From a virus, in IMG/VR virus record IMGVR_UViG_3300020213_000029, positions 1-64,000 of that record: a stretch of 64,000 bases of DNA; one strand, written 5' to 3'. Positions 2,196 through 49,100 of this stretch are shown here, in pieces. Made by a program: the position numbers and the translations under genes. Positions within the stretch are counted from its first letter, which is position 1; each line of letters starts with the position of its first letter. The notes beneath the pieces were generated by a model, which was not told the DNA's origin, searched no databases, and worked only from the letters and a program-made list of their open reading frames with translations.

Positions 2196-2291
2196 TCATG
2201 CTACTACCCAGTTCTTTGGGGTATATACAGCCGGGATGCTATTACAACCCAGAACGCCTCGAAGTTGGTTCGTCTCATTAAAGTGAGTTTA
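2196..2291 (-). pseudogene. remnant of the C-terminal PxNW small-protein family
   Basis: Read leftward from a TAA at 2291-2289 the frame ends VYTPKNWVVA-stop, clearly the family tail with Ala as last residue. No ATG, GTG or TTG lies in the frame. It sits just left of a 12-bp palindrome. The gene before it (2386-2577) is followed by an ATGA-linked frame of only 11 codons. I read this as a decayed member. Confidence 0.5.
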
Positions 2292-2385: not shown

Positions 2386-2577
2386 TCATACCATTACCCA
2401 GCTGTGAGGGAGTCTGAGACTACCACGAGCGTGCGTGTTTGGACATTTCTCCACGATCCCCAAATCGCCGCTATACGACTCAAACAGTTCGTACACTGTC
2501 AGACCGTAGAATTCTTCAATATAGGTCCCGTCCGGTCGTCCGATGTAACGTGTGGTTCCGACTACTATTGGTCGCAT
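2386..2577 (-). CDS. PxNW-tail small protein (63 aa)
   Basis: It starts at ATG 2577, just after the upstream gene's TAA (2579-2581), reads MRPIVVGTTRYIGRPDGTYI and ends LRLPHSWVMV. The last residues fit the window-wide tail [L/C]-P-x-[N/S]-W-x-x-V. The body is predicted mixed beta, with one CPNTH. Function unknown. A TTG nine bases upstream is an alternative start but would overlap the previous gene. Confidence 0.6.
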   Translation of the reverse strand: MRPIVVGTTRYIGRPDGTYIEEFYGLTVYELFESYSGDLGIVEKCPNTHARGSLRLPHSWVMV

Positions 2578-2578
2578 T

Positions 2579-2788
2579 TTAGACAATTATCCAGTTCATT
2601 GGGATGTACTCCCCCTCAGACATTGTAGCATTATGCTGCTTCTGCCGCACTGCAGTTGGAGACATACAGTAGTAATCGTAGGAGTGGCAAAGGTCGCAGT
2701 ATATATTCTCGTGGATCTCAAGTTTGATCCCAAGTTTGATCCCAAGTTCGAAGTATGGAGTACTCGCACTTTGTACCGTAGAATTCAT
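2579..2788 (-). CDS. PxNW-tail small protein (69 aa)
   Basis: ATG 2788 overlaps the upstream stop as ATGA. The product starts MNSTVQSASTPYFELGIKLG and ends EGEYIPMNWIIV, the canonical family tail. An internal in-register DNA repeat (near 2719-2742) encodes GIKLGIKLE. It contains a CDLC pair. Function unknown. Confidence 0.6.
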   Translation of the reverse strand: MNSTVQSASTPYFELGIKLGIKLEIHENIYCDLCHSYDYYCMSPTAVRQKQHNATMSEGEYIPMNWIIV

Positions 2789-2976
2789 AGCTGAACGCAG
2801 TACCAGCTCTTCGGCAGCCAACTCGCTTCGATCGTGAATTCACTTTGGGGTAAATTCCCGGGATTCGACTCCAGTTCGATGACTGCCCACTCGTCGCCAG
2901 GCCACGAGTTCAGAGTAAAGGAACGAGATCCGATGTAGACCTGTCCCTGCTGGAAGTAGGCATAGGAGTAGTGCAC
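2785..2976 (-). CDS. PxNW-like small protein, extended tail (63 aa)
   Basis: First gene of the leftward array. The likely start is GTG 2976 (VHYSYAYFQQGQVYIGSRSF). The end reads EASWLPKSWYCVQL, so the LPxSW core is kept but two residues follow the usual last Val. Longer starts reach into the divergent promoter of the 3085 gene and are less likely. The body is rich in aromatic residues and probably beta. Its stop overlaps the next ATG (ATGA). Confidence 0.5.
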   Translation of the reverse strand: MHYSYAYFQQGQVYIGSRSFTLNSWPGDEWAVIELESNPGNLPQSEFTIEASWLPKSWYCVQL

Positions 2977-4454: not shown

Positions 4455-4685
4455 ATGAGACTTTACGCTGATGACGGGAACATGAGGGTCGATCGTGGTG
4501 CTTTTCGGCCGCAACATCACAAATATGACTGTGATGGTATTGGTCAAGATTTCGGCCGCGATGGTTTTTATAAGTTATGGCCCCACAGCGCCCGGGTGTC
4601 CCTCCCATGGATCATCGTAATATGCTGCACTAGCGCGGCCGACATCGCCAGTTCTCAGTGCCCCAAAAATTGGGTGATGGTATGA
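4455..4685 (+). CDS. PxNW-tail small protein 1 (76 aa)
   Basis: First gene of the operon. ATG 4455 is chosen because it sits where the promoter predicts transcription to start. The product begins MRLYADDGNMRVDRG and ends SSQCPKNWVMV. The body is rich in His, Asp and Gly and has a hydrophobic stretch (SLPWIIVICC). Its TGA overlaps the next ATG as ATGA (4682-4685). Function unknown. Confidence 0.6.
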   Translation: MRLYADDGNMRVDRGAFRPQHHKYDCDGIGQDFGRDGFYKLWPHSARVSLPWIIVICCTSAADIASSQCPKNWVMV

Positions 4686-4873
4686 ATATCATCGTAAGTC
4701 CGGCTCGAAGAGTTGGGCGTCGGCCGGACCTGGATTGTATTCACCATGAGCGGGGCATGAACGATCATGACTGGCATCTCTATTCGACGGACCGTGGATC
4801 GCCATCAGTTTGTGTTCAGTATGGGCATGGTCACAACATTTATAAGTGCCCCAACAACTGGGTGGTGGTATGA
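4682..4873 (+). CDS. PxNW-tail small protein 2 (63 aa)
   Basis: MNIIVSPARRVGRRPDLDC at the start and YKCPNNWVVV at the end. ATGA overlaps occur at both ends. The middle has HDWHLYSTDRG and VCVQYGHGHN, compatible with two beta strands. No homologue recognised apart from the shared tail. Confidence 0.6.
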   Translation: MNIIVSPARRVGRRPDLDCIHHERGMNDHDWHLYSTDRGSPSVCVQYGHGHNIYKCPNNWVVV

Positions 4874-5094
4874 GCCGCCGCCGAAAAACATTCGGACACC
4901 ACCAAACCGCGAGAATCGGTAACTTTATATTTGTGTCGTTCGACTATTGGCATACCCGCAAAGACCGATTCACACTGTGTCAAGCTTCAGTGGGGGCCAA
5001 GCATCAATTCACCGTCCGACGTCGGCTTGGCCCGACCAGAGGAAACGTCAACCGTGATTCGTTCATTTGCCCGAATAATTGGATCATAGTATAA
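4870..5094 (+). CDS. PxNW-tail small protein 3 (74 aa)
   Basis: A basic protein starting MSRRRKTFGHHQTARIGNF and ending SFICPNNWIIV. It starts by ATGA overlap with protein 2 and ends TAATG, so its last base is the A of the next ATG. The Arg-rich body (FTVRRRLGPTRG) could bind nucleic acid, but that is only inference. Confidence 0.6.
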   Translation: MSRRRKTFGHHQTARIGNFIFVSFDYWHTRKDRFTLCQASVGAKHQFTVRRRLGPTRGNVNRDSFICPNNWIIV

Positions 5095-5356
5095 TGAAAA
5101 TCGAAATCTTTCGAGAGTCGTGCGGCTGCGTGTTCCTGGGTGACGGGCGAGTGTGGATTCAGTTCCCCCAAAGAAATTCTCCTAATTGCGGGGCTGCCTT
5201 ATTGTTTGATAAAAGTGTCGACTACGTAGAGAGGTTCCCGAATAATTGGATCATAGTATAATGAAAATCGAAATCTTTCGAGAGTCGTGCGGCTGCGTGT
5301 TCCTGGGTGACGGGCGAGCGTGGATTCAGTTCCCCCACAGAAATTCTCCTAATTGC
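5070..5356 (+). repeat. 120-bp direct duplication spanning a tail and the next gene's start
   Basis: 5070-5189 and 5237-5356 are identical but for two bases, with a period of 167. Each unit starts at the PNNWIIV codons of one gene, crosses the TAATG junction and covers the first 32 codons of the next gene. The copied unit is thus tail plus next N-terminus, not one whole gene. Confidence 0.8.
5094..5261 (+). CDS. PxNW-tail small protein 4 (55 aa)
   Basis: MKIEIFRESCGCVFLGDGRV at the start and YVERFPNNWIIV at the end. The first 32 residues are almost the same as in protein 5 (V/A and Q/H differences), while the following residues differ. It starts in a TAATG junction and ends in another. Probable small beta protein, function unknown. 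Confidence 0.6.
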   Translation: MKIEIFRESCGCVFLGDGRVWIQFPQRNSPNCGAALLFDKSVDYVERFPNNWIIV

Positions 5357-5410
5357 TACACAATGGAGAACAACGCCGCCTGGCTCCCCAAGAACTGGGT
5401 CGTGGTATGA
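5261..5410 (+). CDS. PxNW-tail small protein 5 (49 aa)
   Basis: A near-copy of protein 4 for 32 residues, then a different segment (CYTMENNAAW) and the tail LPKNWVVV. This is the shortest member. The stop overlaps an ATG (ATGA, 5407) whose frame stops after 11 codons. A similarly short frame follows the leftward array, so both arrays end the same way. Confidence 0.6.
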   Translation: MKIEIFRESCGCVFLGDGRAWIQFPHRNSPNCYTMENNAAWLPKNWVVV

Positions 5411-6252: not shown

Positions 6253-6417
6253 ATGAAAGAAATGGCTGCTATCACATTGACGGAGCAGGAAGTGGATTGG
6301 CTCAACAGGTATGTCGCCGAGGGTGACGACTTCGAGTTTGATAGTAATCTCGATGAATCCATTCTGCACAAACTGTGGGGCTCCTTGCCTGCCACGGCTG
6401 GTAAGAATGTCCAGTGA
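6253..6417 (+). CDS. small acidic hypothetical protein
   Basis: 54 residues from ATG 6253, chosen for its AAGGAG site 7 bases upstream. It reads MKEMAAITLTEQEVDWLNRY and is helical and acidic. Its 3' end overlaps the next gene by 11 bases. Function unknown. Confidence 0.55.
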   Translation: MKEMAAITLTEQEVDWLNRYVAEGDDFEFDSNLDESILHKLWGSLPATAGKNVQ

Positions 6418-6595
6418 GGCGTTTTCTGCGCCTACGGTACGGACATTTTTTGCGGGCGGCTGGATTTTTATCTTCGACGGATGGGCGTCGTTACAGTTCA
6501 TGCCCGGAAAAAAATTGCTATACGCACCCTATTCAGCCTCGTGGGTAGACAACAAACAGTCGTTGTCGCTCCCCGAAAACTGGATCGCAGTGTGA
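6407..6595 (+). CDS. PxNW-tail small protein 6 (62 aa)
   Basis: ATG 6407 lies inside the end of the preceding gene. The product starts MSSEAFSAPTVRTFFAGGW and ends SLSLPENWIAV, the family tail. The body is rich in aromatics (GGWIFIFDGWASLQF), consistent with beta strands. It stands alone rather than in an array. Confidence 0.6.
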   Translation: MSSEAFSAPTVRTFFAGGWIFIFDGWASLQFMPGKKLLYAPYSASWVDNKQSLSLPENWIAV

Positions 6596-8556: not shown

Positions 8557-8793
8557 ATGGTGCTACACTATTTGGTCGTGGGTCATTGGAGTGGATTTAA
8601 TATTGGGCAACGGAGCCCGGATGTGATCTTCTGTCAGTCGATGCTAGGACAGCCTGAAACGGGCTTCTGGTCCGCCAATGATGAAGATGCCTTCCTCGAC
8701 TGCATCGAGGAGAAGGCCAGTAATGAGTGGGAGTGCCTAGCCAGTTTCTTCCCCAGGAATTGGTTTCACCTTTTCGATTCTGCGATCTATTAG
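8557..8793 (+). CDS. divergent PxNW-like small protein (78 aa)
   Basis: Starts MVLHYLVVGHWSGFNIGQRS. Near the end it reads ASFFPRNWFHLFDSAIY, so FPxNW is kept but nine residues replace the usual Val end. It follows the terminator, as a lone gene. Membership is probable but weaker than for the others. Confidence 0.45.
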   Translation: MVLHYLVVGHWSGFNIGQRSPDVIFCQSMLGQPETGFWSANDEDAFLDCIEEKASNEWECLASFFPRNWFHLFDSAIY

Positions 8794-11639: not shown

Positions 11640-11803
11640 AGGTCGCCACGGATGACGACGTTAGATCCGCGGTGCGGGATAGCCTCTCGGGGTTGGGGTT
11701 GACGTTCGATGAGTTACAGGCGCAGGCGGAAGCGGATCGTTTCGACAGCGACCTCGCGAGGCGGACGTGGTTGGCAATCGCAGACCTTGCCGCTTACGCC
11801 TGA
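11618..11803 (+). CDS. small acidic helical protein (61 aa), alternative XRE C-terminus
   Basis: MTNRTKVQVATDDDVRSAVR at the start, ending TWLAIADLAAYA. The first residues are shared with an internal stretch of the XRE protein because of the 29-bp repeat. It may be a separate gene, or the original C-terminal part of the XRE gene cut off by the cassette. The end overlaps the convergent methyltransferase by 10 bases. Confidence 0.5.
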   Translation: MTNRTKVQVATDDDVRSAVRDSLSGLGLTFDELQAQAEADRFDSDLARRTWLAIADLAAYA

Positions 11804-12570
11804 CCCACCGACTTTATAATCAACTCTTCAGCTGTGAAGTTCTTCCCGATCGCTGCAGAATAGGTTGCCTTCAGCGGGCGAATCGAGTCTCGTTTGTATA
11901 GTTCGTGTATTTCTGGAGCGTTGTCATAGGACAAAAGCCAATCGTGCCCCTCATGTAGCAATGCTGCCAAATTCTCGTGATCGCTTTGTGTCAGATAGTG
12001 TTGATACATCGTCTTCCCCCGCATATAATACGGTGGGTCGACATAAAAAAAGGCGTCTTCCATCCTGGCTTTATCGATGACGTCTCGGAAATCGAGCTGC
12101 GTTACCGTGAGCCGGTCACGGAAGAGTTCCGTTGTGTCCTGTATTTGCCGGACAAGATATTCTTGCCGCCACTCCGCATCGATCTTCCATTTTCCTGTTT
12201 GATTCCATCCGCCGACCGGCGACGTGTGAGACTTTCCGCTATAAGCAGTCCGGTTCAGGTAGATCGCAGCGAAAGCGTCGTCGACCGTAGACAGTTCTCG
12301 GAACAAATCGGTAGTAGCGGTCGTGGAGAGGATACGATCACATAAGGCATCAACGTTGCCGGTAGCAACCAGTTGCCAGAACGCAGCGATCTTCGAATCC
12401 AGATCGTTCAACCATATCAAACGATCTGGATCTCGTTGAGCTACGGCGATACTGACACTGGCGCCACCGCAAAACGGTTCACAAAAAAGTGGACCCGGGG
12501 GGACGTCGTCAAGGAACAGATTGACGAGCTTTGACTTCCCCCCCGGATACCTGAAAATGTTTAGCTTCAA
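11794..12570 (-). CDS. D12-class DNA N6-adenine methyltransferase
   Basis: 258 residues, a full-length Dam-type enzyme. FRYPGGKSK (residues 6-14) and CEPFCGGAS (30-38) are the SAM-binding motifs, and the catalytic motif is VDPPYY (about 177-182). It transfers methyl to adenine, probably to shield phage DNA from host restriction or to mark it. The target site cannot be read from the sequence. It starts by a 4-base overlap with the upstream gene. Confidence 0.85.
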   Translation of the reverse strand: MKLNIFRYPGGKSKLVNLFLDDVPPGPLFCEPFCGGASVSIAVAQRDPDRLIWLNDLDSKIAAFWQLVATGNVDALCDRILSTTATTDLFRELSTVDDAFAAIYLNRTAYSGKSHTSPVGGWNQTGKWKIDAEWRQEYLVRQIQDTTELFRDRLTVTQLDFRDVIDKARMEDAFFYVDPPYYMRGKTMYQHYLTQSDHENLAALLHEGHDWLLSYDNAPEIHELYKRDSIRPLKATYSAAIGKNFTAEELIIKSVGQA

Positions 12571-14039: not shown

Positions 14040-14187
14040 TATCAGACTGATGTCCTCCATCTTAACACAGGATCTCTGTATAGTCCTTCTGTAGGGAGCC
14101 CGTTTATACGGATAAACAGAGGTACCATGTGAGCCCGACCGATCTCTGTCGATGATAGTTAGGTCGCTCAAAGAGGAGCCTTTGCCT

Positions 14188-17100
14188 GTGTCAGACTACC
14201 TTTCTTTCCGGTTGCCCGAGTCTTTTATCGAGACCTACAAGGAGGGCAAGCCAGATTGGAAGTTTGGGATTGGGGGCGGCAATTCGCTGTCAGAGCTGAC
14301 CTTTATTGGTAAGTATTCCCGCAAAAAGGGGGATGGGACGAAGGAACAGTGGTTCGATGTTTGTGAGCGTGTGATCAACGGCATGTACTCCATACTCAAG
14401 GATCACTGCACCCACCAGCGCACGCCATGGAATGAGTTCAAAGCACTCAAAAGTGCGCAGGATGCCTACGAACGAATGTATTCGTTCAAATGGTTGCCCC
14501 CTGGCCGGGGTCTGTGGATGATGGGGACGGACCTTGTCCACGGCGAAGGACACTCCAACGGTTTGCAAAATTGCTCCTTCATCAGTACCGCCAAACTGTC
14601 CACACACTCAGCGTGGGAAGCAACCGGTCCATTCATCCGAATGATGGAACAGGCAATGTGGGGCATTGGTTGTCTTGCCGAGGGTTCTATAATTATGACT
14701 TCCGATGGTCCTAAACCTATCGAGACTCTCGGTGGGGCTTGTGATGTCATCGTCGACGGAGTGAAACATCATTCCCCTACGGGGTCATGGTTCACCGGCG
14801 AAAAGAACGTTGTAGAGATCCGGACCAATGAAGGCTTTCGCCTTAAGCTGACTCCCGACCATCAGGTAAAAACAGTAATCTACCGACGCTCAACAAACAA
14901 TGTAGTCAGATGTGAATCAATCTGGAAAGAAGCACAAGCACTACTCCCGGGAGATCTAGTCGCACTGAGTCACGCCGGAGAGTATATCTGGGGAGGCGCA
15001 GGCACCTTTGATGAGGGTTATCTGGTCGGAGCCGTACTGGGGGACGGGTGGCTGGATGATGGGGGACGAGCGTTTGCCGCAGCTTACCGCAAAGATCACA
15101 ACATGGAAGGGATAAAGCGACAGTGCGAAATCAGCGGTCAGTACGTTCCCCGACGCAACTGTGCTGGGGGTTGGCGTACTAAAAACAAAGACTGCGACAT
15201 ATACTCGGTAGGATCATGGGTATTTGATTATCTGTCTAAAACTCCTAAAAATGTCAAGCCCACTGTCGAAGGGACGGGGGCTGATTTCCATATAGGGTTC
15301 CTTCGAGGGCTCTTCGATGCAGACGGATCAGTCATCGACTCCGGCCCCGAGGGTAGAGTTGTGAAGCTCACTCAAAGCAATCAAAACACATTGGAAGTCG
15401 TTCAACGCATGCTGTTAAGATTTGGAATAAGGAGCAACATAACGGTCAAGCGAGCCGAACAAGTGGAAGCCACAATTCTCGGGAAGGTGACCGTTTCAAA
15501 TCCAGCCTGGGATCTTCAAATCGGGAAAGACGGAATCTCCAAGTTTGTGGAGATGATTGGCTTCTCGGAGGGTCCGAAGTCTGAGAGATTACTCGCAATG
15601 GGAAAGGATAGGCCATACCGTAGCAAACAGCGTCTTCATGCAGCGGTCACTGAAGTCCTCGCCTTGGACGAAAAAATGCGAACCTATGACATGTCGGTTC
15701 CAGACATCCAGACGTTCGATGCGAACGGCATGCAGGTCCATAATTGTGGCAGCGACACTCGGGGTGCGGGTCGGCTCATTCTAAACCAACCCATCGACCG
15801 CACCGAGATATTTACGGTACCAGACAGCCGAGAAGGGTGGGCCGAATCTGTCGGCAAACTTCTGGAATCATTTTTCTTTAAGAATCGTCCACGTCTGGAA
15901 CACAACTATGATCTGATCCGGCCTGCTGGCTCTCCGCTGCAGCGGTTCGGTGGTTTTGCGTCGGGTCCGCAACCTTTGATCGACTGCCACGAATCGATCC
16001 GTGCCCAACTAGAAGATCGGGCGGGCGACCATATCACTAGCCGAGATATCACCGACATTATCAACAAGATCGGCAAGGCAGTACAGGCCGGTGGCACTAG
16101 GCGTAGCGCTCAGATCATGTTCGGCGACCCCGACGACAAAGACTTCGTGAACATCAAAAATTGGGAACTGGAAGAGAACGTCGAGCGAACCGGACCTGAT
16201 GGTTGGGCGTGGAATTCGAATAATTCGGTCTTCGCGGAGACCGGTATTGAGTATTCTGATCTTGTTGAAACGATCAAGATTAACGGAGAGCCCGGCCTGT
16301 TTTGGTTAGAATTGGCGAGGTCATATGGTAGAATGGTTGACCCTCCAGACGGGAAAGATTGGCGTACCGTAGGTTCTAATCCTTGCGCTGAGCAGACGCT
16401 TGAACACATGGAAGTATGCACATTAGTAGAGATGTTTCCGAACCTTCATAACGACTTCGACGATTTCAAACAAACGATTAAAGCGGCCTACCTTTATGGC
16501 AAAGCCGTTACACTGTTACCGACAACGTGGCCAGAAACAAACGAGGTCATGGCCCGCAATCGTCGGATCGGATGCTCGATGTCTGGGCTCGCCCAGTTCG
16601 TGGAAGAGCGGGGCTGGATGCAGCTCAAAACGTGGATGGACGACGGTTACAGTTTTCTGGTTCATCGAGACACAAAATACTCTGAATGGCTGGCGGTACG
16701 GGAATCCATCAAGAAGACCAGCATCAAACCGAGCGGCACAGTATCCATTGTGGCGGGTGTGACGCCGGGAGTGCATTGGCCGGTCAAATCGGGCTACTAT
16801 ATTCGTCGAATCCGCTACACGATATTCGACCCGATCGTAGACGTGCTCAAAGATGCCGGGTACGATGTCGAGCCGAGCTACGACGACCCAAGCAACACCG
16901 TCGTAGTATCCTTCCCCACTCGGGGACCGGTCATGCGGGACGAACGCAATGTCACCATCTGGGAAAAAGTAGAACTCGCTGTACTGGCGCAGCGATATTG
17001 GGCGGACAACCAGGTCAGTGCTACGATCTCATTCATGCCCCACGAAGTTGACCAAGTGGCGCACGTGTTGTCCGCCAAAGACGGGCAACTGAAAAGTATT

Positions 17101-17289
17101 TCGTTCCTGCCGATCACAGACGCAGGGACATCGCATCGGCAAGCGCCCTATGAGCCGATCGAAGCTTTCACTGCAGAGGCGATGATGGCGAAGATCAAAC
17201 CGATCAGCCTAGATCGGCTCTACGGCCGGGAATCCTTGGAGGCCCAAGGCGAACGCTTCTGTGATACCGAACGTTGCGAACTACGCTAA
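14188..17289 (+). CDS. nrdJ: class II (B12-dependent) ribonucleotide reductase with intein
   Basis: The precursor is 1033 residues from GTG 14188. That start is preferred over ATG 14152 because AGAGGAG lies 9 bases before it. After removing the 358-residue intein the enzyme has about 675 residues, normal for NrdJ. Seen motifs: LQNCSF (radical-chemistry cysteine region), the DTRGAGRLI loop, NPCAEQTLEHMEVCTLVEMF (finger loop with Cys and Glu) and a C-terminal CDTERC redox pair. It makes deoxynucleotides without oxygen or an NrdB partner. The host must supply cobalamin. Confidence 0.9.
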   Translation: MSDYLSFRLPESFIETYKEGKPDWKFGIGGGNSLSELTFIGKYSRKKGDGTKEQWFDVCERVINGMYSILKDHCTHQRTPWNEFKALKSAQDAYERMYSFKWLPPGRGLWMMGTDLVHGEGHSNGLQNCSFISTAKLSTHSAWEATGPFIRMMEQAMWGIGCLAEGSIIMTSDGPKPIETLGGACDVIVDGVKHHSPTGSWFTGEKNVVEIRTNEGFRLKLTPDHQVKTVIYRRSTNNVVRCESIWKEAQALLPGDLVALSHAGEYIWGGAGTFDEGYLVGAVLGDGWLDDGGRAFAAAYRKDHNMEGIKRQCEISGQYVPRRNCAGGWRTKNKDCDIYSVGSWVFDYLSKTPKNVKPTVEGTGADFHIGFLRGLFDADGSVIDSGPEGRVVKLTQSNQNTLEVVQRMLLRFGIRSNITVKRAEQVEATILGKVTVSNPAWDLQIGKDGISKFVEMIGFSEGPKSERLLAMGKDRPYRSKQRLHAAVTEVLALDEKMRTYDMSVPDIQTFDANGMQVHNCGSDTRGAGRLILNQPIDRTEIFTVPDSREGWAESVGKLLESFFFKNRPRLEHNYDLIRPAGSPLQRFGGFASGPQPLIDCHESIRAQLEDRAGDHITSRDITDIINKIGKAVQAGGTRRSAQIMFGDPDDKDFVNIKNWELEENVERTGPDGWAWNSNNSVFAETGIEYSDLVETIKINGEPGLFWLELARSYGRMVDPPDGKDWRTVGSNPCAEQTLEHMEVCTLVEMFPNLHNDFDDFKQTIKAAYLYGKAVTLLPTTWPETNEVMARNRRIGCSMSGLAQFVEERGWMQLKTWMDDGYSFLVHRDTKYSEWLAVRESIKKTSIKPSGTVSIVAGVTPGVHWPVKSGYYIRRIRYTIFDPIVDVLKDAGYDVEPSYDDPSNTVVVSFPTRGPVMRDERNVTIWEKVELAVLAQRYWADNQVSATISFMPHEVDQVAHVLSAKDGQLKSISFLPITDAGTSHRQAPYEPIEAFTAEAMMAKIKPISLDRLYGRESLEAQGERFCDTERCELR
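14671..15744 (+). other. intein with LAGLIDADG endonuclease in nrdJ
   Basis: Codons from Cys 14671 (CLAEGSIIMTSDGPKPIETL) to Asn 15742-15744 (MQVHN), followed by Cys+1 (CGSDTRG). The 358-residue intein has N-terminal splicing block A, two LAGLIDADG-type helices (VGAVLGDGW and LRGLFDADGS) and a C-terminal HN. The insertion falls in the conserved GIG/DTRGAG loop of the reductase active site, a usual place for inteins. Confidence 0.9.
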
Positions 17290-17371: not shown

Positions 17372-17539
17372 TCATACGATGATCCAGTTCGACGGGAGAG
17401 CCTCATGTCTCGGGTCGCCGACGAACTCCGGCGACCTGTCTTCGGAAAAACATGAGACTGTATTCGGAATCCTGGGATCGTTTATCGCATACCGCAATCT
17501 CCAGATTCCGTCAACCGAACGCTCTGTAACAACTCTCAT
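17372..17539 (-). CDS. PxNW-tail small protein, leftward (55 aa)
   Basis: Read leftward from ATG 17539, which overlaps the zinc-ribbon stop as ATGA, the product begins MRVVTERSVDGIWRLRYAIN and ends HEALPSNWIIV. The tail, the size and the overlap all fit the family. The DNA also contains nested inverted repeats (17404-17457). It is easily missed because a longer opposite-strand frame covers it. Confidence 0.6.
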   Translation of the reverse strand: MRVVTERSVDGIWRLRYAINDPRIPNTVSCFSEDRSPEFVGDPRHEALPSNWIIV

Positions 17540-20614: not shown

Positions 20615-20785
20615 ATGATTACTTATCAGACAATTATACGAGATGTCTCCGTTATCTCTGAATCTGACTTTGACCTTGTATATTCTCGGCATCGTAAGTT
20701 TGGTCAACTGCGAGCCAAAGTCTTATGGGGCGGTGAGACCGGTGATCATTGGATTAGCCTGCCCAACAGCTGGGTCGTGGTGTGA
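20615..20785 (+). CDS. PxNW-tail small protein (56 aa)
   Basis: MITYQTIIRDVSVISESDFD at the start and HWISLPNSWVVV at the end (Ser variant of the Asn position). Predicted beta-rich. Its TGA overlaps the next ATG as TGATG. Confidence 0.6.
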   Translation: MITYQTIIRDVSVISESDFDLVYSRHRKFGQLRAKVLWGGETGDHWISLPNSWVVV

Positions 20786-20946
20786 TGCTCCTCTTGGGAT
20801 GGCGGCTTGGTATGCCTGTCATGTCCGAATATCTGGCTGGTACCACCGTTGAGTTGGTATGGTACCATCTTGGCCCAGAAGTGCGATCAAATGGGCGTAG
20901 ATCCTATGAATCCGTTTATCTTCCCAACAACTGGATAGCTGTTTAA
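20785..20946 (+). CDS. PxNW-tail small protein (53 aa)
   Basis: MLLLGWRLGMPVMSEYLAGT at the start and YESVYLPNNWIAV at the end. Coupled to the preceding member by a one-base stop/start overlap. Function unknown. Confidence 0.6.
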   Translation: MLLLGWRLGMPVMSEYLAGTTVELVWYHLGPEVRSNGRRSYESVYLPNNWIAV

Positions 20947-24951: not shown

Positions 24952-26184
24952 GTGAAACTAAGTATTATTGGAGCCGGAAAATTGGGACTACCCCTGGGGG
25001 GAGTTCTCGCTGAGGCTGGGCATGAAGTAATCGTTACAGACGTTAACGATACGCTCATCGAAGCGCTCCGTACCGGCACCTATGCGTCGGTGGAACCCGA
25101 CTTGGATGATCTCCTGGCCCGCACCAAACTACAATTTACTACCGATGTCGCTGGCGCAGCCCGAGACACCGAAGTGTCGTTTATTGTCGTCCCTACTCCT
25201 TCTAATCAGAATGATGAATTCTCTAACGAGTTCGTGCTCCAAGCGATAGCCAGCATCGGCGAAGGGATCGCCGGAAAAGTAGCCGAACATACCGTTGTCC
25301 TTGTTTCCACCGTAATGCCGGGAGCGTCAACCGACATAATCATTCCCGCCTTGGAGGCACACTCTGGAAGAGAAATCGGGGTGCACCTCAATTATGCCTA
25401 CTCACCAGAATTCGTTGCCCTCGGGTCCATCATCGCCAACATGAAGAGCCCCGATTTCCTGCTGATCGGCGAAGCAAATCGGCGGGCTGGGACAGTACTG
25501 AGCTTTATCTACCACACGTACTTGGTGTACCCACAAATTGTTCGGGTATCCGTAATCGATGCAGAGATCGCAAAACTGTCGATCAACTGCTATTTAACAG
25601 TCAAGATTTCGTTCGCCAACATGATCAGCGAACTCTGTGAAGCCTTCAAAGGTGCCTCGGCCCGAGCGGTATGCGATGCCATCGGACAGGACCGTCGCAT
25701 CGGTCCTGATCTCCTTCGGGAAGGAACGGCCTCGGCCGGACCCTGCCTTCCGCGAGATCTGCGAGCCCTGTCACGGGCAATGTTCGTTCGCAACCTCCCT
25801 GATGAAATGGTATGGGCAGCGAACAGAGTCAACAAGCGACAGGTTCAACGTCTTAGAGGTATGGCGCTCTCTTTTGGTCCTAAAAAGGTTGCGGTGCTGG
25901 GAATCTCTTACAAACCGAACACATTCGTCACTGATGCTTCGGTTGGTTTAGCGTTGATGGGCTCTTTGGAGCAGAGGGGGGCGAAGGTCCAGGGTTATGA
26001 TCCAATGGCCGTGTTTCCTGGTCAAGCAGTGACCATTGGCGCCGCTTTGGCTCACGCCGATGTTGTTGTGATCACGACTGCATGGCCCGAATTCGCTGCC
26101 ATCGACTACGGCGAAACGCATGTGATAGATTGCTTTGGCATAGCGAAGTATGGACGGAATATACACCGACTGGGGTTCGGATGA
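24952..26184 (+). CDS. UDP-glucose/GDP-mannose dehydrogenase family enzyme
   Basis: 410 residues. Rossmann motif IIGAGKLGLPLGGVLAEAGH, catalytic cysteine in SAGPCLPRD (Cys265), INCYLTVKISFANM helix, and the UDP-binding C-terminal domain with ISYKPNT. It oxidises a nucleotide sugar at C6 in two NAD-dependent steps, giving an acidic sugar. The exact sugar is not shown. Short fused gene order suggests it feeds the adjacent glycosyltransferases. Confidence 0.85.
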   Translation: MKLSIIGAGKLGLPLGGVLAEAGHEVIVTDVNDTLIEALRTGTYASVEPDLDDLLARTKLQFTTDVAGAARDTEVSFIVVPTPSNQNDEFSNEFVLQAIASIGEGIAGKVAEHTVVLVSTVMPGASTDIIIPALEAHSGREIGVHLNYAYSPEFVALGSIIANMKSPDFLLIGEANRRAGTVLSFIYHTYLVYPQIVRVSVIDAEIAKLSINCYLTVKISFANMISELCEAFKGASARAVCDAIGQDRRIGPDLLREGTASAGPCLPRDLRALSRAMFVRNLPDEMVWAANRVNKRQVQRLRGMALSFGPKKVAVLGISYKPNTFVTDASVGLALMGSLEQRGAKVQGYDPMAVFPGQAVTIGAALAHADVVVITTAWPEFAAIDYGETHVIDCFGIAKYGRNIHRLGFG

Positions 26185-26984
26185 TCACGTTCCGTCAGCT
26201 GGGCCTGGCGGGGAGACTCGGGAATCAGCTGCACCAGATAGCGAGCACTATCGGTATCGCAACCGCTCTCGGCGAGTCGTGGTGTTTCCCTCAGTGGGAT
26301 TATGAACCGTTTTTCTCTATCCCCGAAGACTGGTTTGTTGACGATCCGTACGGAGAAGATGCCACCAATTATGTCCCCCATATGGATGAGCGGGCCAAAG
26401 TTTATCTTCAGGACTACGGGCTGTGGCGGGACGTGAAAGATATCGTCTTTGCAGCATTACAGCCGTCAGTGGAAGCTCAGATCGAGGTCCACAAGCATCA
26501 AGACTACCTGAATCTCCCCGGGCCGCTTCTGGTCATGCATGTGCGGCGGGGCGATAATGCGACCTCTTACCTTCGGGGGGAAGAGGGCTTTCATCCCCTG
26601 CGCCCCAGTAGTTATTACCGGGAAGCGCTGACGCTGCTAGAACACGAGAGCCTTGCCATATTCTCCGATGACATTCCTTGGTGCCGACAAGAATTCGCTG
26701 ATCTCGATGCCTTCTATTTTGTGGGTGGTAGTTCCAGAGCCAAAGAACATGAACCCGAGTATTTCACGGCACCGATTGAGGATTGGATCGATCTTACGGC
26801 TATGGAGCGAGGCGACGCCTTTATTATGTCCAACAGTAGCTACTCTTATTGGGCGGCGTTTCTGTCTGGTGTTGATGGGCCACAAATCATTTTTCCAGAC
26901 CCGTTCTTCGGACCTCGTCTGCCGTACATAAATACCGACCTGATGTTCCCGCCCGACTGGAGAAAACTGCCACATGCTCCTTGA
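26181..26984 (+). CDS. alpha-1,2-fucosyltransferase-like enzyme (GT11)
   Basis: RLGNQLHQIASTIGIA at the N-terminus, VMHVRRGDNATSY (HxRRGD) and FIMSNSSYSYWAAFLSG, the three motifs of GT11. Transfers fucose, or L-galactose in related enzymes. The latter fits the GDP-L-galactose-type epimerase nearby. It begins by ATGA overlap with the dehydrogenase. Confidence 0.8.
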   Translation: MITFRQLGLAGRLGNQLHQIASTIGIATALGESWCFPQWDYEPFFSIPEDWFVDDPYGEDATNYVPHMDERAKVYLQDYGLWRDVKDIVFAALQPSVEAQIEVHKHQDYLNLPGPLLVMHVRRGDNATSYLRGEEGFHPLRPSSYYREALTLLEHESLAIFSDDIPWCRQEFADLDAFYFVGGSSRAKEHEPEYFTAPIEDWIDLTAMERGDAFIMSNSSYSYWAAFLSGVDGPQIIFPDPFFGPRLPYINTDLMFPPDWRKLPHAP

Positions 26985-33135: not shown

Positions 33136-33690
33136 ATGCGGGGCAATTCTGTAGACAAACTCGACGAAGATTGGGAAGCCAAGGTAGAAACTATCGCCAA
33201 ACTGTACCCCAAGAGTGTGGCGCTCGACTGGAGCGAAGTGTTCGGCCAGGACCCGGCCATTCTAGGACGGGTCATCAACGACGTTATCAAGCTGGACCAA
33301 CGGAGAGTTGGGCGTCCCGGTAAACGGCCAAGTTTGGCCCCCAATCTCACTGCACAAAAGCTAAAGGAACTACAAGGAGAGGATCACACCAATCTACCTT
33401 TTCCTGAGGCTCTGAAGATCCTCACTATGGGGACTCCTATCAAGGATGTGCTCGGGCGGCTCCATGTGAGCCGGAGTCATCTTTATAATGTGTTCGAAAG
33501 AAAAAGTCTTCCAAGTTTGGACATCATCGAGCAAGCCGCCATCGCCTTCGGGAAACATCCCAGCTACTTCCTAGAATACAGGGTCGCATATATCGTAGGC
33601 ATCCTACAATCGAAGCTGACCAGCGTACCGGAATCCTCGATTGTCTTCTACCGGAAACTAGCAGGATACGAAGAAAAGCGTAAAAAATGA
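33136..33690 (+). CDS. helix-turn-helix protein, candidate small terminase
   Basis: 184 residues. The segment DVLGRLHVSRSHLYNVFERK is a helix-turn-helix, and KHPSYFLEYRVAYIVG recalls the ending of XRE-type DNA-binding proteins of actinophages. It overlaps terL by four bases (ATGA), so the DNA-recognising terminase subunit is a fair guess. A regulator cannot be excluded. Confidence 0.5.
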   Translation: MRGNSVDKLDEDWEAKVETIAKLYPKSVALDWSEVFGQDPAILGRVINDVIKLDQRRVGRPGKRPSLAPNLTAQKLKELQGEDHTNLPFPEALKILTMGTPIKDVLGRLHVSRSHLYNVFERKSLPSLDIIEQAAIAFGKHPSYFLEYRVAYIVGILQSKLTSVPESSIVFYRKLAGYEEKRKK

Positions 33691-36600
33691 GCGTTATAGA
33701 GGATCTGACGGAGGAGGAAGCCTATCTTTGGGCAATAATTTCCGATCCATCGGGTCTGGATTTAGCGGAGTGGTCATGGACCGACGAAGAGCAGGCAGAC
33801 GGGTGTTTCCGAGCTTGGCCATTTCAATGGAAATGGTTTAGATGCACTGATCAGCGACAGATCGATCAGATGGGTCGAGGGCTCGGGAAGAGTTTATCGA
33901 TAAAAATGCGGGCCTATGCCTTTCCGTTTTTGCATCCCGGACAAGAGATGGTTATAACGGCGCCTGAGGGTGTACACCTTGATGCGGTAACAGACAACGT
34001 AGAGACAATATTTCTGTCGTCTAGGCTTGGCGACGCCATGGTGGTAAAGGGTCGTAGTGGCATAAAACATCGCCCCTTCCACATCAACTTTGTCAACGGT
34101 TCACGTATTATGGGCCGCATACCTCAACTGTCGGGCAAGGGCTTAAAAGGGACGCACCCACTGTGGTTGGAAACTGACGAGGCCAGTGACTTCCCGGCTC
34201 AAGGCTGGGTAGAAATTATCGAGACCCTGAAGATGGGCACGCCAGGAGCTGTCTGGAGGTGTATCGCAGAAGGCCAGCTCGTTCTGACGTTTGAGGGATG
34301 GAAACCTATCGAGAAAGTTGAAGTCGGAAACTTGGTTTTGACACACAAACAAAGGTGGCGTCGTGTCATAAAAACTTGGGAGAATGATATTCAGGAATGT
34401 GTATCGACACAAGGAAACGGACATCCTGGATTGATATCAACCGCTGATCATAAGTTCTATGTGAGAGGTGTTGCTCCAGGGCATAGGCGAGGAGGCAAGC
34501 AACTCCAATCTCCCGGCTGGATCTCAGCAAAGGAATTTAAATCTTCCTGTCCCTACAGCCATTGGTCTAGTCCCACAAGCGTTCCCTGGGGGGATGGGGA
34601 AGTCCCTCCTGTCGTTGCAGAGAAGGGGTGGTACACTTCGATCGCTGATACCTCAGATCTGACGTGGCTGTGGTTGTATGGGCTTTACATAGCGGAAGGC
34701 TATGGGTGTAACTCTGACAATTCTGGACACAATCACCGACGATTTCATTGGTGCGTCAACGATGAAGAATGTGATCTCGTGGCCGAGAAGCTGGCCAGTT
34801 TGGGTTTGAAATCGCATTTTTATAGGCAAGGCAAAAGTGTTAAGGTTATAGTGGGATCCTCCGGTTTATATCACTGGCTTACAGACAATGCAGGAGTTCT
34901 GGCGCACAATAAGGAAATAGCTAAATGGGTGTTTGGTCTAAATGACATACAAAGACAGGCTATATTTGATGGTATGACTTACGGGGACGGAAGCTGGTCA
35001 CATGATAGGACCAGGTGGGAGTACGTTACGGTGTCCAAGAAGCTCGCACTCGGCATGAAGCTTCTTGGACAGTCATTGGGGTACGTCTGCAATCCACGAC
35101 ACACCGAACCCAGAGAATCAATTATAGAAGGTCGTACCGTACGGTCCAAAGAGGCGTGGTGTGTCCAAATGACCCATTTGAAGGATTATATTGCGCCTAG
35201 AACTAAGTTGTTGGATGACGGGTTGATGTGGTCCCCCATCGAAGATGGTGTCCACAGTGTCGGACCGAGAAGGGTATATGATCTAGAGGTAGAAGAGGAC
35301 CATAGTTACATCGTGGAGGGTATTGTTGTATCGAATTGTCACGGCGTTACGAGAGGAATGCGGGATCACTTCTATAAGTTTACGCAACCTGACTCCGGCT
35401 GGACCGTTCACCGAGCAACCGGCATGCATCGCCCTACATGGAATGACGAAGAACGCCAAGCAAAAATGGACATGTATGGATCAAGGGATCATCCTGACTA
35501 CCGCAGGAATATTCTAGGGCTCCATGGTGATGCCACTAACCCGCTCTTCGTTCTCCATCGCCTTATGCAGTGCGTGGATGCTGAACAGACCTCTACTTAC
35601 AACACTGATGAGTACCAGATCATCAAAATCAATAACGAGATGGTCCTTGACAGTGGTGACGATGTTCTCGACCTGCTGGATTATCCAGAAGCGCACATCA
35701 AGAAATATAAAACATTCTGGATAGGCATGGATATCGGGCTCACACTCGCCCCGTCATCGATCATGATCTTCGCCGAGGAGAACGTCAAAGGCGTATCAAA
35801 ACTGCGACTCCTGTGCCGGGTTATGTTGGAACGTATCTCTAACCCGGCCCAGGTCCAAGTGATTTTGCACACGATCGCCTTTTATAAGCCGCAGGCCTTC
35901 TCTATGGACCGAACGGGTATCGGTCTGCCCATGTTCCAAGATATTCAAAATCAAGCTGAAACCGTACCCGGGCTAAAACCGGTTCTAGATATCATTAAAG
36001 GTTACAATTTCTCATCTAAGATTTTGGTAGACTTCGACCAAACCATTGATGTCGATCAGTATACCGGGGACGCCGAGAAAGAAGCGGGCATGCATCGTAA
36101 CGTGCTTGAATACTGTGTTGATGCCGAGACGGAATGCTTCACTAAAAGTGGTTGGAAGACTCACGACCAGCTAGAAGCGTCGGAGCTTATTCTCACGCTA
36201 GATCCACAGACAAAATTGGCCGAGTGGCAGCCCGTTGAGGCAGTGAATGTTTTTGATGGAGATAGGAAGGTACTTGACGTCCAAACCAGGAGTTTCTCAA
36301 GCGTCTCTACCATGAATCACAACTGGGTAACCTTTCCTGTCTCACCCTACTCTAAGAAAGAAGCAGTTGTTTGGAATACTACCGCTGACCTGGTCAATAA
36401 CTCACGAATCATGATAATGGCCCCAGGCGCCGGTGCCACACATAAAACGATCGAGGATGCGGTCGTACGAGTTGTGGCTTGGCTCTACACGGAAGGTTGG
36501 TGGGGCCACGGGAGAACAGACAAATCGTGTGGTTTTGGTATTGCCCAGTCATTCACTGTGTACCCGGAGAAAGTGGACGACATCCGGCAAGACCTGACGG

Positions 36601-37352
36601 AAGCTATTGGGGTAAAGGGGTTTTCTGAAAGTAAAGTTAACAAGGTCGGGATGATTACGTTCTGGGTAAACGCCGAGGAAGCAAGGAAAATCGAGCGACA
36701 TATTACATATCCCGAGAAATGTCCTACACCTGCCTTTTTGTCGGCCATGACGCAGGAACAGGCGCTTGAGTTTATAAGAGTATCGATAGAGGCTGATGGA
36801 TGTGGGCGACAATTCATGCAGACAAAACGCTACCATGCAGAAGCCTTCATGACTGCGACAGTAATGGCCGGTATCCCGGCCCGAATGTCCGAAACAAAGA
36901 AAGGGACCTGGTGCGTGGAGTTATTGAAGAGGGGCTATGTCAAGCCCGTTCAGGCTGTCCGTTTGAACTCATTGTGCGCCTCGATGGAGATTCGTGAACA
37001 TACCGGCATTGTCTGGTGCCCTACGACTGCGCACGGAACCTGGCTGGCTAGACGACGGGGGACGACGTATTTTACAGGCAACTCTTCGGACAAGTTAAGG
37101 CAGATCGTGGACGAGAACCGGATGATTATACCGTGGGACAAAGAGCTGATCGCTGAATTTCAGGGCTCTACGTGGTCATATGATAAGTCGGTCATCGATA
37201 TGTATGGTCGTAGAAAGCGCTATAATAAAGGCGACTTACACAACTTGGATGCTGCCCGGATGGCCGTGCTAGGTTATGTGCAGTACGCCATCGAAGTCCT
37301 GATGAAGAAAGAGAAGCAGACCCCTGTCACTGACATCTTTCTCACCTTCTGA
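33687..37352 (+). CDS. terminase large subunit carrying two inteins
   Basis: The precursor is 1221 residues; removing 359 and 323 intein residues leaves 539, normal for TerL. ATPase: GRGLGKS (about residues 63-69), Walker B LWLETDE (about 159-165). Nuclease: WIGMDIG, SMDRTGIGLP and HNLDAARMAVLG. It cuts and pumps phage DNA into the prohead. Intein 1 lies between ATPase parts, intein 2 in the nuclease domain, so both must splice for activity. The gene opens the virion module. Confidence 0.9.
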   Translation: MSVIEDLTEEEAYLWAIISDPSGLDLAEWSWTDEEQADGCFRAWPFQWKWFRCTDQRQIDQMGRGLGKSLSIKMRAYAFPFLHPGQEMVITAPEGVHLDAVTDNVETIFLSSRLGDAMVVKGRSGIKHRPFHINFVNGSRIMGRIPQLSGKGLKGTHPLWLETDEASDFPAQGWVEIIETLKMGTPGAVWRCIAEGQLVLTFEGWKPIEKVEVGNLVLTHKQRWRRVIKTWENDIQECVSTQGNGHPGLISTADHKFYVRGVAPGHRRGGKQLQSPGWISAKEFKSSCPYSHWSSPTSVPWGDGEVPPVVAEKGWYTSIADTSDLTWLWLYGLYIAEGYGCNSDNSGHNHRRFHWCVNDEECDLVAEKLASLGLKSHFYRQGKSVKVIVGSSGLYHWLTDNAGVLAHNKEIAKWVFGLNDIQRQAIFDGMTYGDGSWSHDRTRWEYVTVSKKLALGMKLLGQSLGYVCNPRHTEPRESIIEGRTVRSKEAWCVQMTHLKDYIAPRTKLLDDGLMWSPIEDGVHSVGPRRVYDLEVEEDHSYIVEGIVVSNCHGVTRGMRDHFYKFTQPDSGWTVHRATGMHRPTWNDEERQAKMDMYGSRDHPDYRRNILGLHGDATNPLFVLHRLMQCVDAEQTSTYNTDEYQIIKINNEMVLDSGDDVLDLLDYPEAHIKKYKTFWIGMDIGLTLAPSSIMIFAEENVKGVSKLRLLCRVMLERISNPAQVQVILHTIAFYKPQAFSMDRTGIGLPMFQDIQNQAETVPGLKPVLDIIKGYNFSSKILVDFDQTIDVDQYTGDAEKEAGMHRNVLEYCVDAETECFTKSGWKTHDQLEASELILTLDPQTKLAEWQPVEAVNVFDGDRKVLDVQTRSFSSVSTMNHNWVTFPVSPYSKKEAVVWNTTADLVNNSRIMIMAPGAGATHKTIEDAVVRVVAWLYTEGWWGHGRTDKSCGFGIAQSFTVYPEKVDDIRQDLTEAIGVKGFSESKVNKVGMITFWVNAEEARKIERHITYPEKCPTPAFLSAMTQEQALEFIRVSIEADGCGRQFMQTKRYHAEAFMTATVMAGIPARMSETKKGTWCVELLKRGYVKPVQAVRLNSLCASMEIREHTGIVWCPTTAHGTWLARRRGTTYFTGNSSDKLRQIVDENRMIIPWDKELIAEFQGSTWSYDKSVIDMYGRRKRYNKGDLHNLDAARMAVLGYVQYAIEVLMKKEKQTPVTDIFLTF
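34260..35336 (+). other. intein 1 of the terminase (LAGLIDADG)
   Basis: From Cys (34260, CIAEGQLVLTFEGWKPIEKV) to Asn (35334-35336, IVEGIVVSN), next residue Cys (CHGVTRG). 359 residues. Blocks A and G with final N are clear, and LYGLYIAEGYG and FDGMTYGDGS are LAGLIDADG-type helices. Splice site after GAVWR. Confidence 0.9.
36114..37082 (+). other. intein 2 of the terminase (LAGLIDADG-like)
   Basis: From Cys (36114, CVDAETECFTKSGWKTHDQL) to Asn (37080-37082, TTYFTGN), next residue Ser (SSDKLRQ). 323 residues. WLYTEGWWGH and VSIEADGCGR are endonuclease-like helices. The +1 residue is Ser, while intein 1 has Cys, so they are different types. The site lies in the nuclease domain. Confidence 0.9.
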
Positions 37353-43125: not shown

Positions 43126-43638
43126 ATGGCAGTCGAGCAATGGAAGAATCAGACACAGAGTACCGCCTTCGTGTTGAAGTTCGACCGGTATCAGAATCTT
43201 ATCTCAGAGCTGGTTTCCCCCGGTAAAACCGTGACCGTTACAAAAGAGGAACGGGAAATCAATCAGGATCGAGCGGCGTTGGACAATTTGGACGTATTCA
43301 AGAACGGCATCCTTTTGCCGGTGAAACTCGTGGACCCCGAGGATGAGCGGGAATTCGCCGAGAACCCGAACCTGATGAGCGAAGACGACTTGCGAAACCT
43401 GCTTAAGCTGAGCAAGCCCGCCTTTGTCAAACGTATCAATGAGATCAGTAACATTTACCCGTTGCTGCGGCTTGACGAGCTGGCCAAAGAGGACGATACC
43501 AAGATCACGGCCGGTGTCTCGCAGGCGCTGGCTGATCGGATCGAAGAGATGACCCCGAAATCTCCCCAGATCAAATCGTTCGCCGACGACGGACCTGTCT
43601 CCGAGGAGTTGCAGAGGCGCCGAGACGTGCGAGGCTGA
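43126..43638 (+). CDS. hypothetical virion-module protein (170 aa)
   Basis: MAVEQWKNQTQSTAFVLKFD, then a charged helical protein with EDELLKLSK-like helices (LRNLLKLSKPAFVKRINEIS). First gene after the capsid promoter, so perhaps a head-completion protein. No family recognised. Confidence 0.55.
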   Translation: MAVEQWKNQTQSTAFVLKFDRYQNLISELVSPGKTVTVTKEEREINQDRAALDNLDVFKNGILLPVKLVDPEDEREFAENPNLMSEDDLRNLLKLSKPAFVKRINEISNIYPLLRLDELAKEDDTKITAGVSQALADRIEEMTPKSPQIKSFADDGPVSEELQRRRDVRG

Positions 43639-43643
43639 CCATA

Positions 43644-43835
43644 ATGCCCGTGCTGCGCCCCCCAATGTCAATAAAAAACACGAATGGGCTCCGTATTATT
43701 ACCGAATACGTGGTGCCTCACGAGTGGGAGAAACGGTTCGTTCTTGTGCAAGCGACCGAAGAATCCACGTCTTGTGTGATCTCTTACCCCGGCCCGAGGT
43801 ACGAACTTTGTCCTCATAACTGGATCATTGTTTAA
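43644..43835 (+). CDS. PxNW-tail small protein (63 aa)
   Basis: MPVLRPPMSIKNTNGLRIIT at the start and YELCPHNWIIV at the end, canonical. This copy sits in the virion operon, far from the others, five bases after the previous gene. Its TAA is one base before the next ATG. Confidence 0.6.
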   Translation: MPVLRPPMSIKNTNGLRIITEYVVPHEWEKRFVLVQATEESTSCVISYPGPRYELCPHNWIIV

Positions 43836-46170: not shown

Positions 46171-49100
46171 ATGCCAAGCCGCGGCTATTTTGCTGACAGT
46201 GGTGGTGGCGACACCACCACACAATCAGCGACGGTACAGACCGATCACCGGACGCTGACATTCACCGGTGACGCAAGCTCGACGTATTTGATCATCGGAT
46301 ACGTCGAGTCGCAGGTCGATATCAACGCGGCCCGTGACACGCAGGTCAGGCTGTACGACGACACGGCCGCCGTGTCGGTTTACGACACCAACTTTGAGTG
46401 TCGCTTGACGACGGGTGTCGAGTGGCGGCCGTTGACGTTCGCTTATCTGTTCACGACGACCGGCAGCCCGGTGCCGCAGACATTCAAGTTGCAGCACAAG
46501 TTGGAGTCGACGCTCACCAACGCCGATTCGGTGTGTCGCAACGGTTCGCTTATCGCGTTGAAATTAAACAGCGGGACAGACTTCACTGCGACGTCCGACT
46601 CAGCGGCGACGGCGACGTCGAGCCCTGGAACGTGGACTGACTACACGACATCGTTGACGTTCACCGCTACGTCCGACGACTACCTGATTATCGCTGTTGC
46701 CCGTTGCGCATACTCAGCGACGACGAACGGTGCCCGCATCCGAATGTTGTGCGAGGACACCACGACCGGCGTCGCTGACACCGAGTGGGTTCCGTCGGAT
46801 TCCACGACCAAAGTCACCTATGCGGCGATGGTGAAACGCACACTGACGGCAGGGTCGGTGACGTTCAAGTTGCAGCACTCTCGGGCTGTCGCCGGGTCGG
46901 GCACATCGACGCTCGACTTCGTCCGCTACGTGGCGTTGCGGCTCTCCGATTTCGATTCGACGCAAGTCACGCAAGACACCGGCGCCGACACGACGACGAG
47001 CGCGACGTACGCCGACCTCGGCGACACGCACACGCAGACGTTGACGAGCGGCATCGACTATTTGATGCTCGCCTCGGCGAACTCGACGATCGACACGACT
47101 TCGGTCACGTTCGGTCTGAAAGTCACCGACGGCACCACAACGTTCGCGGAACCTGCGGTGAGTCCAGGTGTCACCGGCAAAGGCTTCGCTGCGGTCGTCC
47201 CGAAGATCATCTCGGGGTCTGGGTCGTCGACGACTCACAAGGTGCAAGGCATCTCTAACGGCACTGCGACACTGACGTTGGCTGAGCATCGCATCGCGAT
47301 GCTGCAAGTCGAAGCCGCGGTCGCCAATGCTGCTGCGCAGCTTGCTACGGCCACTGCCCTTAATCCCAGTGTCGCTACAACGATTCTCGTTAATGCGGGA
47401 GTGGCATCTACGGTAATTACCAGTTCCGACACTACAGTCACAACAGTGGCTCAGGCTTCCGCTGGTGTGGCTTCCATTTCGGTAGCTGCTTATGATGGGC
47501 ATGATACTGTTTTCTTTACTACAGTTCTCGCTTCTGGAACTGCTACAGGCAATAACACAACCAGTACGGCCTCTACCAATACTAATCTTGCAACAGCCTC
47601 TGTAGCTGCTCGGGATGCGACAGCAGCGACGACGGCTGCCACTAACGCCAACGCTGGGGTGCCCTCAGGAACGGTCACCGGCAATAATGCTACTGTTCTC
47701 ATAGCTGTCGTCGCCTCGGCTGGTGTGGCTTCCATTTCGGTAGCTGCTTATGATGGGCATGATACTGTTTTCTTTACTACAGTTCTCGCTTCTGGAACTG
47801 CTACAGGCAATAACACAACCAGTACGGCCTCTACCAATACTAATCTTGCAACAGCCTCTGTAGCTGCTCGGGATGCGACAGCAGCGACGACGGCTGCCAC
47901 TAACGCCAACGCTGGGGTGCCCTCAGGAACGGTCACCGGCAATAATGCTACTGTTCTCATAGCTGTCGTCGCCTCGGCTGGTGTGGCCTCGGTCACTACA
48001 GCGGCATATAGTGCTACGTCGACGATTGTTGCGATCGAAACCACTGCCACTATCACTGCTACGGCCTTCGACGGTACGACCACTACACTCACGGTTACCA
48101 ATGTCCCCGCCGGAGTAGCCTCTCTAGCAGTTCAGGCTAGGGATTCAACTACGAATGTGGGCGCTGGTCAGAATGTGGCGACCACTACAGCTCTCGCCCA
48201 CACTCCTAGCGATTCAATCAGGGCGCTAACCGGTCTCAGCTCGGCAAGTCCGATCGCTTATGATGCTACACAGGTCCCGTCCTCGCATGTCTACGCTGAG
48301 GCGACTACCGCCAGCCCGGCAGCCCTTGGTCTCACGGGAAGTTTACAAGTAAATGCGGAACTGATCTCCGGGACTGGTGTCGCCTACGATGCCACCACGG
48401 TTTCCGTTCCCTACGTCTACGCCAATGCCGGACTGGCGACGGCCAATCCTCTAGGTTATAACGCTTCCGCAAATATTATCGCCGTCGAAGCCGCTTATGT
48501 TGTCCCTACGTCCTACAGCCTCTCAGCTGCCGTCCAAACCGCCACTGCAACCGCTACTGTCAGCCCCATCGCCAACAACATACGGACTTACGTAGCCACT
48601 ACGGCATTTGTTCTCCTCGGAACCTACAATGCCACCGTCGACCTTAATACTAATCCTCTTTTTGGCACTGGCACGGGTAGTGGCATCGACCAAACGGCAG
48701 TGGTCTCCACCAGACCTGATTCGATTCCAGTATCAATAACTGCCTATGACGGTACAACTGACAATAATCTCATTTATTCGTATGCATATGCAGAGGCGGC
48801 TAGTCTCACCGCTAGCGCCGCAAATTCCACTACCAGCGTCGCCTCACGCCCAGATGTAGCGGTCGTTGTTTCGACAGCCTTACCTATCCTGTCTCGCTAC
48901 GTTTCGGCGGGCGCAGCGAGCGTAACAATTGCCGCTCCTGATGGACGTAATGCAATAGCAATGCCCGCCGGACGGGGCACCAGCTCTCCCACGGCCTACA
49001 CGATCACGGCGGTAAATACCGGCGATCACGTCTCCGCCCTGGCACAACCAGCAGAAGTCGTGCTCGGGACATTTAATACCACTACACAAGTCGGCGCCGG

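Follow-up and report, generated by a model that had tools for sequence, protein, structure and literature searches.

The question raised by this stretch of viral DNA is why a dozen small, mutually unlike proteins should all end in the same short peptide. The window (the whole stretch analysed, 64,000 nucleotides from a virus record 69,651 bases long) harbors, distributed over its two strands, 12 short ORFs of 49-76 aa that terminate exactly in [LCFI]-P-x-[NS]-W-[IV]-[IVMA]-V-stop, together with three looser variants, one remnant and one tandem duplication. They are listed below and are referred to hereafter by their lower coordinate.

2785-2976 (-), variant member, 63 aa, GTG start, ending WLPKSWYCVQL; at the head of the minus-strand array, with an ATGA overlap with 2579
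2579-2788 (-), member, 69 aa, ending IPMNWIIV (exact motif)
2386-2577 (-), member, 63 aa, ending LPHSWVMV (exact motif); body similar to that of 4682
2196-2288 (-), remnant with the tail TPKNWVVA
4455-4685 (+), member, 76 aa, ending CPKNWVMV (exact motif); first gene of the plus-strand array
4682-4873 (+), member, 63 aa, ending CPNNWVVV (exact motif); start within the ATGA of the 4455 stop
4870-5094 (+), member, 74 aa, ending CPNNWIIV (exact motif); start within the ATGA of the 4682 stop
5094-5261 (+), member, 55 aa, ending FPNNWIIV (exact motif); start within the TAATG of the 4870 stop
5261-5410 (+), member, 49 aa, ending LPKNWVVV (exact motif); 98% identity to 5094 over the first 96 nt, followed by a different C-terminal part
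5070-5356 (+), imperfect tandem duplication (5070-5189 and 5237-5356) of a tail plus the N-terminal half of the next gene
6407-6595 (+), member, 62 aa, ending LPENWIAV (exact motif)
8557-8793 (+), doubtful variant, 78 aa, ending FPRNWFHLFDSAIY (looser motif)
17372-17539 (-), member, 55 aa, ending LPSNWIIV (exact motif); full-length alignment with 43644 at 31% identity
19303-19467 (+), possible variant member, 54 aa, ending TPKNWCYVTIAG (looser motif)
20615-20785 (+), member, 56 aa, ending LPNSWVVV (exact motif)
20785-20946 (+), member, 53 aa, ending LPNNWIAV (exact motif); start at the 20615 stop
43644-43835 (+), member, 63 aa, ending CPHNWIIV (exact motif); homology to 17372 from ~43689

The DNA pattern CCNNNNARYTGGRTNRYNGTNTRA was matched 12 times in the 64-kb window, as compared to an average of 0.00 matches over 100 dinucleotide shuffles; across the entire record it again gave 12 matches, and the reversed pattern gave 0. 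An unbiased clustering of the C-termini of all ORFs in the genome recovered one 12-member cluster composed of exactly these 12 ORFs (the next clusters listed had 2 members each), and in a control of 75 other viral stretches (0.97 Mb) the biggest C-terminus cluster had 3 members (in 61 of the 75 stretches it had 1). Since the open frames upstream of the 12 tails are much longer than expected by chance (joint P ~10^-13.7), and since several tail genes begin inside the ATGA or TAATG found at the stop of the preceding gene (i.e. in tight operons), the tail ORFs are genuine genes, in which the peptide is the conserved part.

The initial annotation had counted at least 13 intact genes with the shared tail, a figure of which the 12 exact ones stand; three genes that it had described as less exact (2785, 19303 and 8557) do not end in V, but carry respectively 2 (LPKSWYCVQL), 4 and 6 residues beyond the motif. 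The stop thus falls directly after V in 12 of the 15 ORFs (12 exact and 3 looser), and the 3 near-C-terminal variants of the looser motif compare with 0.47 expected from its density elsewhere. Its place at the start of the minus-strand array and its ATGA overlap with 2579 make 2785 convincing as a member, and it probably belongs to the tail family; the membership of 8557 and 19303 is doubtful. The copy at 2196 (-), with the tail TPKNWVVA, is a remnant, as had been proposed. Between 2386 and this remnant lies a perfect 12-bp inverted repeat (CATTAAAGTGAG, 7-bp spacer, 2276-2306), the sole exact copy in the window.

With regard to the virus itself, its terminase and head protein match those of Caudovirales GX15bay (at 45% and 50-52%), and the closest relatives found in IMG/VR have terminases that are 57-64% identical. 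Because the ribonucleotide reductase and the primase lean towards actinobacteriophages, the host may perhaps be an actinobacterium. The gene for the terminase large subunit (33687-37352, +) has two in-frame insertions (approximately residues 193-550 and 813-1121) that are absent from the GX15bay terminase and look like inteins, and the ribonucleotide reductase gene (14152-17289, +) contains an intein-like internal insertion starting near CLAEGSIIMTSDG. Furthermore, we observed a long direct repeat with ~260-bp spacing (47461-47987, +) within a 1107-aa gene (46171-49494), and a DNA methyltransferase gene (11794-12411, -; E 5.5e-45 to the PADLOC model PD-Lambda-5_B).

In line with the initial annotation, which knew of no described family of this kind, none was found in the Pfam, NCBIfam, PHROGs, PDB, phage or plasmid searches. 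Profile searches of Pfam, NCBIfam and PHROGs gave isolated weak matches only (best E 0.0027, for 1 of 14 members), and tblastn of all bodies against 50,697 phage records and 72,556 plasmids returned nothing (the positive control, a head-protein fragment, worked). Scans of IMG/VR and GTDB with the tail pattern yielded no homologue: there was one match per stretch, consistent with chance, the matches lay mostly at the ends of short frames (median 27.5 codons), and loci with a second, looser tail match proved to be a single conserved region recurring in many contigs. The tail was likewise absent from 11 terminase relatives and 4 head-protein relatives (several of 40-137 kb, several fragments), although very close records may have escaped these searches, and literature searches for such a family found nothing relevant. 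A PDB profile match to NKG2-D (PCPKNWIC) was local, with an E of 0.85, and was set aside as a chance match. The ORF at 26001-26984 (+) ends in FPPDWRKLPHAP, a similar protein in the terminase relative L067 ends in FPEDWRKLPHVI and one in L094 in YPENWIIV; these three look like one kind of glycosyltransferase, and the resemblance of their endings to the tail is loose and probably unrelated. On the basis of sequence, we read the tail family as lineage-specific and paralogous, its bodies changing fast while the C-terminal peptide stays fixed. Moreover, 43644 directly follows a head-region gene (43126-43638) that is conserved in relatives, a placement such as an inserted accessory gene would show.

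Codon-position and stop-anchored information was calculated on 11 tails, with one of the 5094/5261 duplicates left out. The first and second codon positions hold 1.50 and 1.68 bits, as compared to 0.68 bits at the third, and the DNA flanking the tails is at background level. As the third position varies while the first two do not, it is the peptide that is conserved and not a DNA repeat, and the earlier proposal that selection acts on the peptide is upheld. In the alignment anchored at the stop, positions -1 to -8 hold 2.57-5.35 bits each, position -9 holds 1.19, and the residues upstream are near the chance value (1.26 +/- 0.25 bits), the clearest exception being position -20 (1.94 bits, with several Cys). 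This sharply bounded block of eight residues favours a peptide signal and resembles a short linear motif. Furthermore, each of the 11 non-duplicate members ends in four hydrophobic residues, without the polar face that is expected of an exposed edge strand.

The bodies had been described as mostly not alignable. This holds for their summed pair similarity, which is at chance once the tails are removed (z = 1.05 anchored, -0.7 local), but not for all pairs, some of which are related, so that the bodies are not simply unrelated. The similar pairs (tails removed) are 17372/43644 (z 4.3), 2386/4682 (z 4.0) and 6407/5094 (z 2.7), that is, 3 pairs at z >= 2.5 where 1.2 were expected, which amounts to modest evidence of relatedness; with tails included, 17372 and 43644 align over 55 residues (tblastn E ~2e-4). 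To judge from their sequences, 5094 and 5261 are a recent tandem duplicate, and the 12 tails are therefore not all independent: the first 32 residues are the same save two substitutions, the remaining body differs in sequence and length, and the tail is present in both. In composition the bodies are rich in aromatic residues (F/Y/W 13.2% vs 8.0%) and poor in helix formers (24% vs 34%), to an extent matched by 0 of 20,000 random draws from the other proteins of the phage. Since such a composition is expected of small beta-rich proteins, the family is probably beta-rich, and at least partly paralogous. The possibility that the bodies are random noncoding ORFs bearing a tail was rejected, as their low R/P/S and high aromatic content is unlike noncoding translation and their frames are too open for chance; their coding-type composition is intermediate between that of real and spurious ORFs.

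Structure prediction of the members, a check that the initial annotation had proposed, gave two models of low confidence: AlphaFold on the 14-member alignment produced one hairpin (pLDDT 49), and the single-sequence model of 2785 (pLDDT 59) is all beta, with the tail as its final strand. None of the Foldseek matches was significant (best E 0.88 in PDB and 0.78 in BFVD). The few whole-model matches below 4 A included small beta-barrel domains of Mu/TnsB-type transposases; with E values of 1.9 or above, these offer at most a lead. The P-x-N-[WY]-hydrophobic pattern of the tail resembles the end of eukaryotic SH3 domains; a check for an SH3-like beta-barrel had before it the low-confidence all-beta model and the lack of a significant fold match, and the members gave no SH3 or other convincing match in Pfam.

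Taken together, these observations lead us to favour, with a probability of roughly 0.45, the reading that through the tail, fast-diverging and probably beta-rich bodies dock to or assemble with a single partner common to them all. The W-hydrophobic-hydrophobic-V end would insert into this shared partner, for which the candidates would be a phage protein (for instance the head, or a factor of replication or transcription) or a single protein of the host, and the bodies would supply varying activities. Most plausibly these would be accessory ones in host takeover or counter-defence, which is a guess based on how small phage genes that evolve fast tend to behave. We prefer docking over a structural strand because of the sharp limits of conservation, the end that is hydrophobic on both faces, and the exchange of part of the body with the tail kept in 5094/5261. 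The termination at V in most of the ORFs, the free third codon positions, the tight operons and the absence of the tail from the relatives examined are also in its favour. On the other hand, the variants bear 2-6 extra residues, so that the terminal carboxylate perhaps need not be free; one fold ending in the tail would likewise produce related pairs and a common composition; and the single-sequence model of 2785 places the tail in a last strand.

The same points speak for a second reading, in which the tail would be the last beta-strand, together with the turn before it, of a single small beta fold that evolves fast, and would be kept only for core packing. We grant this reading, which the initial annotation had raised, a considerable if minority chance because three body pairs are distantly related and the composition is common to all; the duplicate pair, the model of 2785 and the variants with additional C-terminal residues agree with it. 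A fold family should, however, keep other core positions, and here the body is near chance, with only the Cys-containing -20 column clearly above it. The summed body similarity, the abrupt edges of the conserved block, the unlike C-terminal parts (tail excluded) of 5094 and 5261, and the want of a significant fold match or of an SH3 or other convincing Pfam match likewise count against it. The docking tail and the structural last strand are not fully exclusive.

We consider it unlikely that the tail is a C-terminal degradation signal conferring a short life, with a Tsp/Prc-type or Clp protease, or else a factor of the phage, as its reader. Tsp reads non-polar C-termini, and a hydrophobic free C-terminus is indeed found here on many small proteins, but the C-degrons known from bacteria are less strict and work without an invariant P-x-N-W, and the ends of the variants are extended. 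A gene for a trypsin-like protease (869-1852, -; weak Trypsin_2 match) is situated downstream of the minus-strand array of tail genes; no PDZ domain was found in it, and a tail-reading protease is a lead only. Very improbable, and largely refuted by the codon-position periodicity, is a conserved DNA or RNA element (a recombination site, or a ribosome-binding or coupling signal) that is translated incidentally: the ATGA or TAATG at the tail often holds the start of the following gene and one duplication starts at a tail, but third codon positions are free, the flanks hold no conserved DNA, the motif is kept at gene ends that have no following gene, and there is no Rfam match. The same periodicity, unconserved flanks and lack of an Rfam match led us to reject a DNA repeat, an RNA element and an integron-like cassette as candidates, and promoter-like sites occur in numbers near chance.

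Small phage genes are often without recognisable relatives or any functional handle, and a peptide common to a dozen unlike proteins is such a handle: one tail partner, if identified, could serve for the whole set, and should the bodies turn out to act in counter-defence or takeover, the tag would serve for finding more such factors in related phages. Moreover, the set offers a clean natural case in which a short motif is conserved on proteins that otherwise evolve until they are unrecognisable. Among known systems, the start-associated sequences of cluster K mycobacteriophages are also a short element that recurs at the boundaries of many phage genes; there, however, the conserved unit is DNA upstream of starts, whereas here it is a peptide at stops, with the third codon position nearly free. 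The cargo-loading peptides of encapsulins are short, C-terminal and found on diverse proteins, and dock cargo into an HK97-fold shell; their sequence differs from that of the tail, their cargo consists of enzymes, and any docking of the tail into a shell would be putative. The closest parallel is provided by the internal proteins of T4 (IPI and its relatives) with their capsid targeting sequence (CTS), the likeness being that within one phage, small proteins of otherwise diverse sequence share a short peptide (the targeting role being putative in our case). The CTS of T4 is N-terminal, whereas the conserved block described here is C-terminal and hydrophobic, the virus is unrelated, and any packaging or cleavage of the present proteins would be hypothetical. 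It is possible, although less likely than not, that a transferable C-terminal docking tag joins a rapidly shifting array of small proteins to one partner and that new combinations arise by recombination at the tag or close to it; such a tag system would be the C-terminal counterpart of the capsid-targeting system of T4. The T4 internal proteins are small and very diverse, with only the short targeting peptide conserved among them, and their bodies are adapted to different host restriction enzymes (PMC3012670). By analogy, the tail set may work as these proteins do, yet we do not file it as a part of that family.
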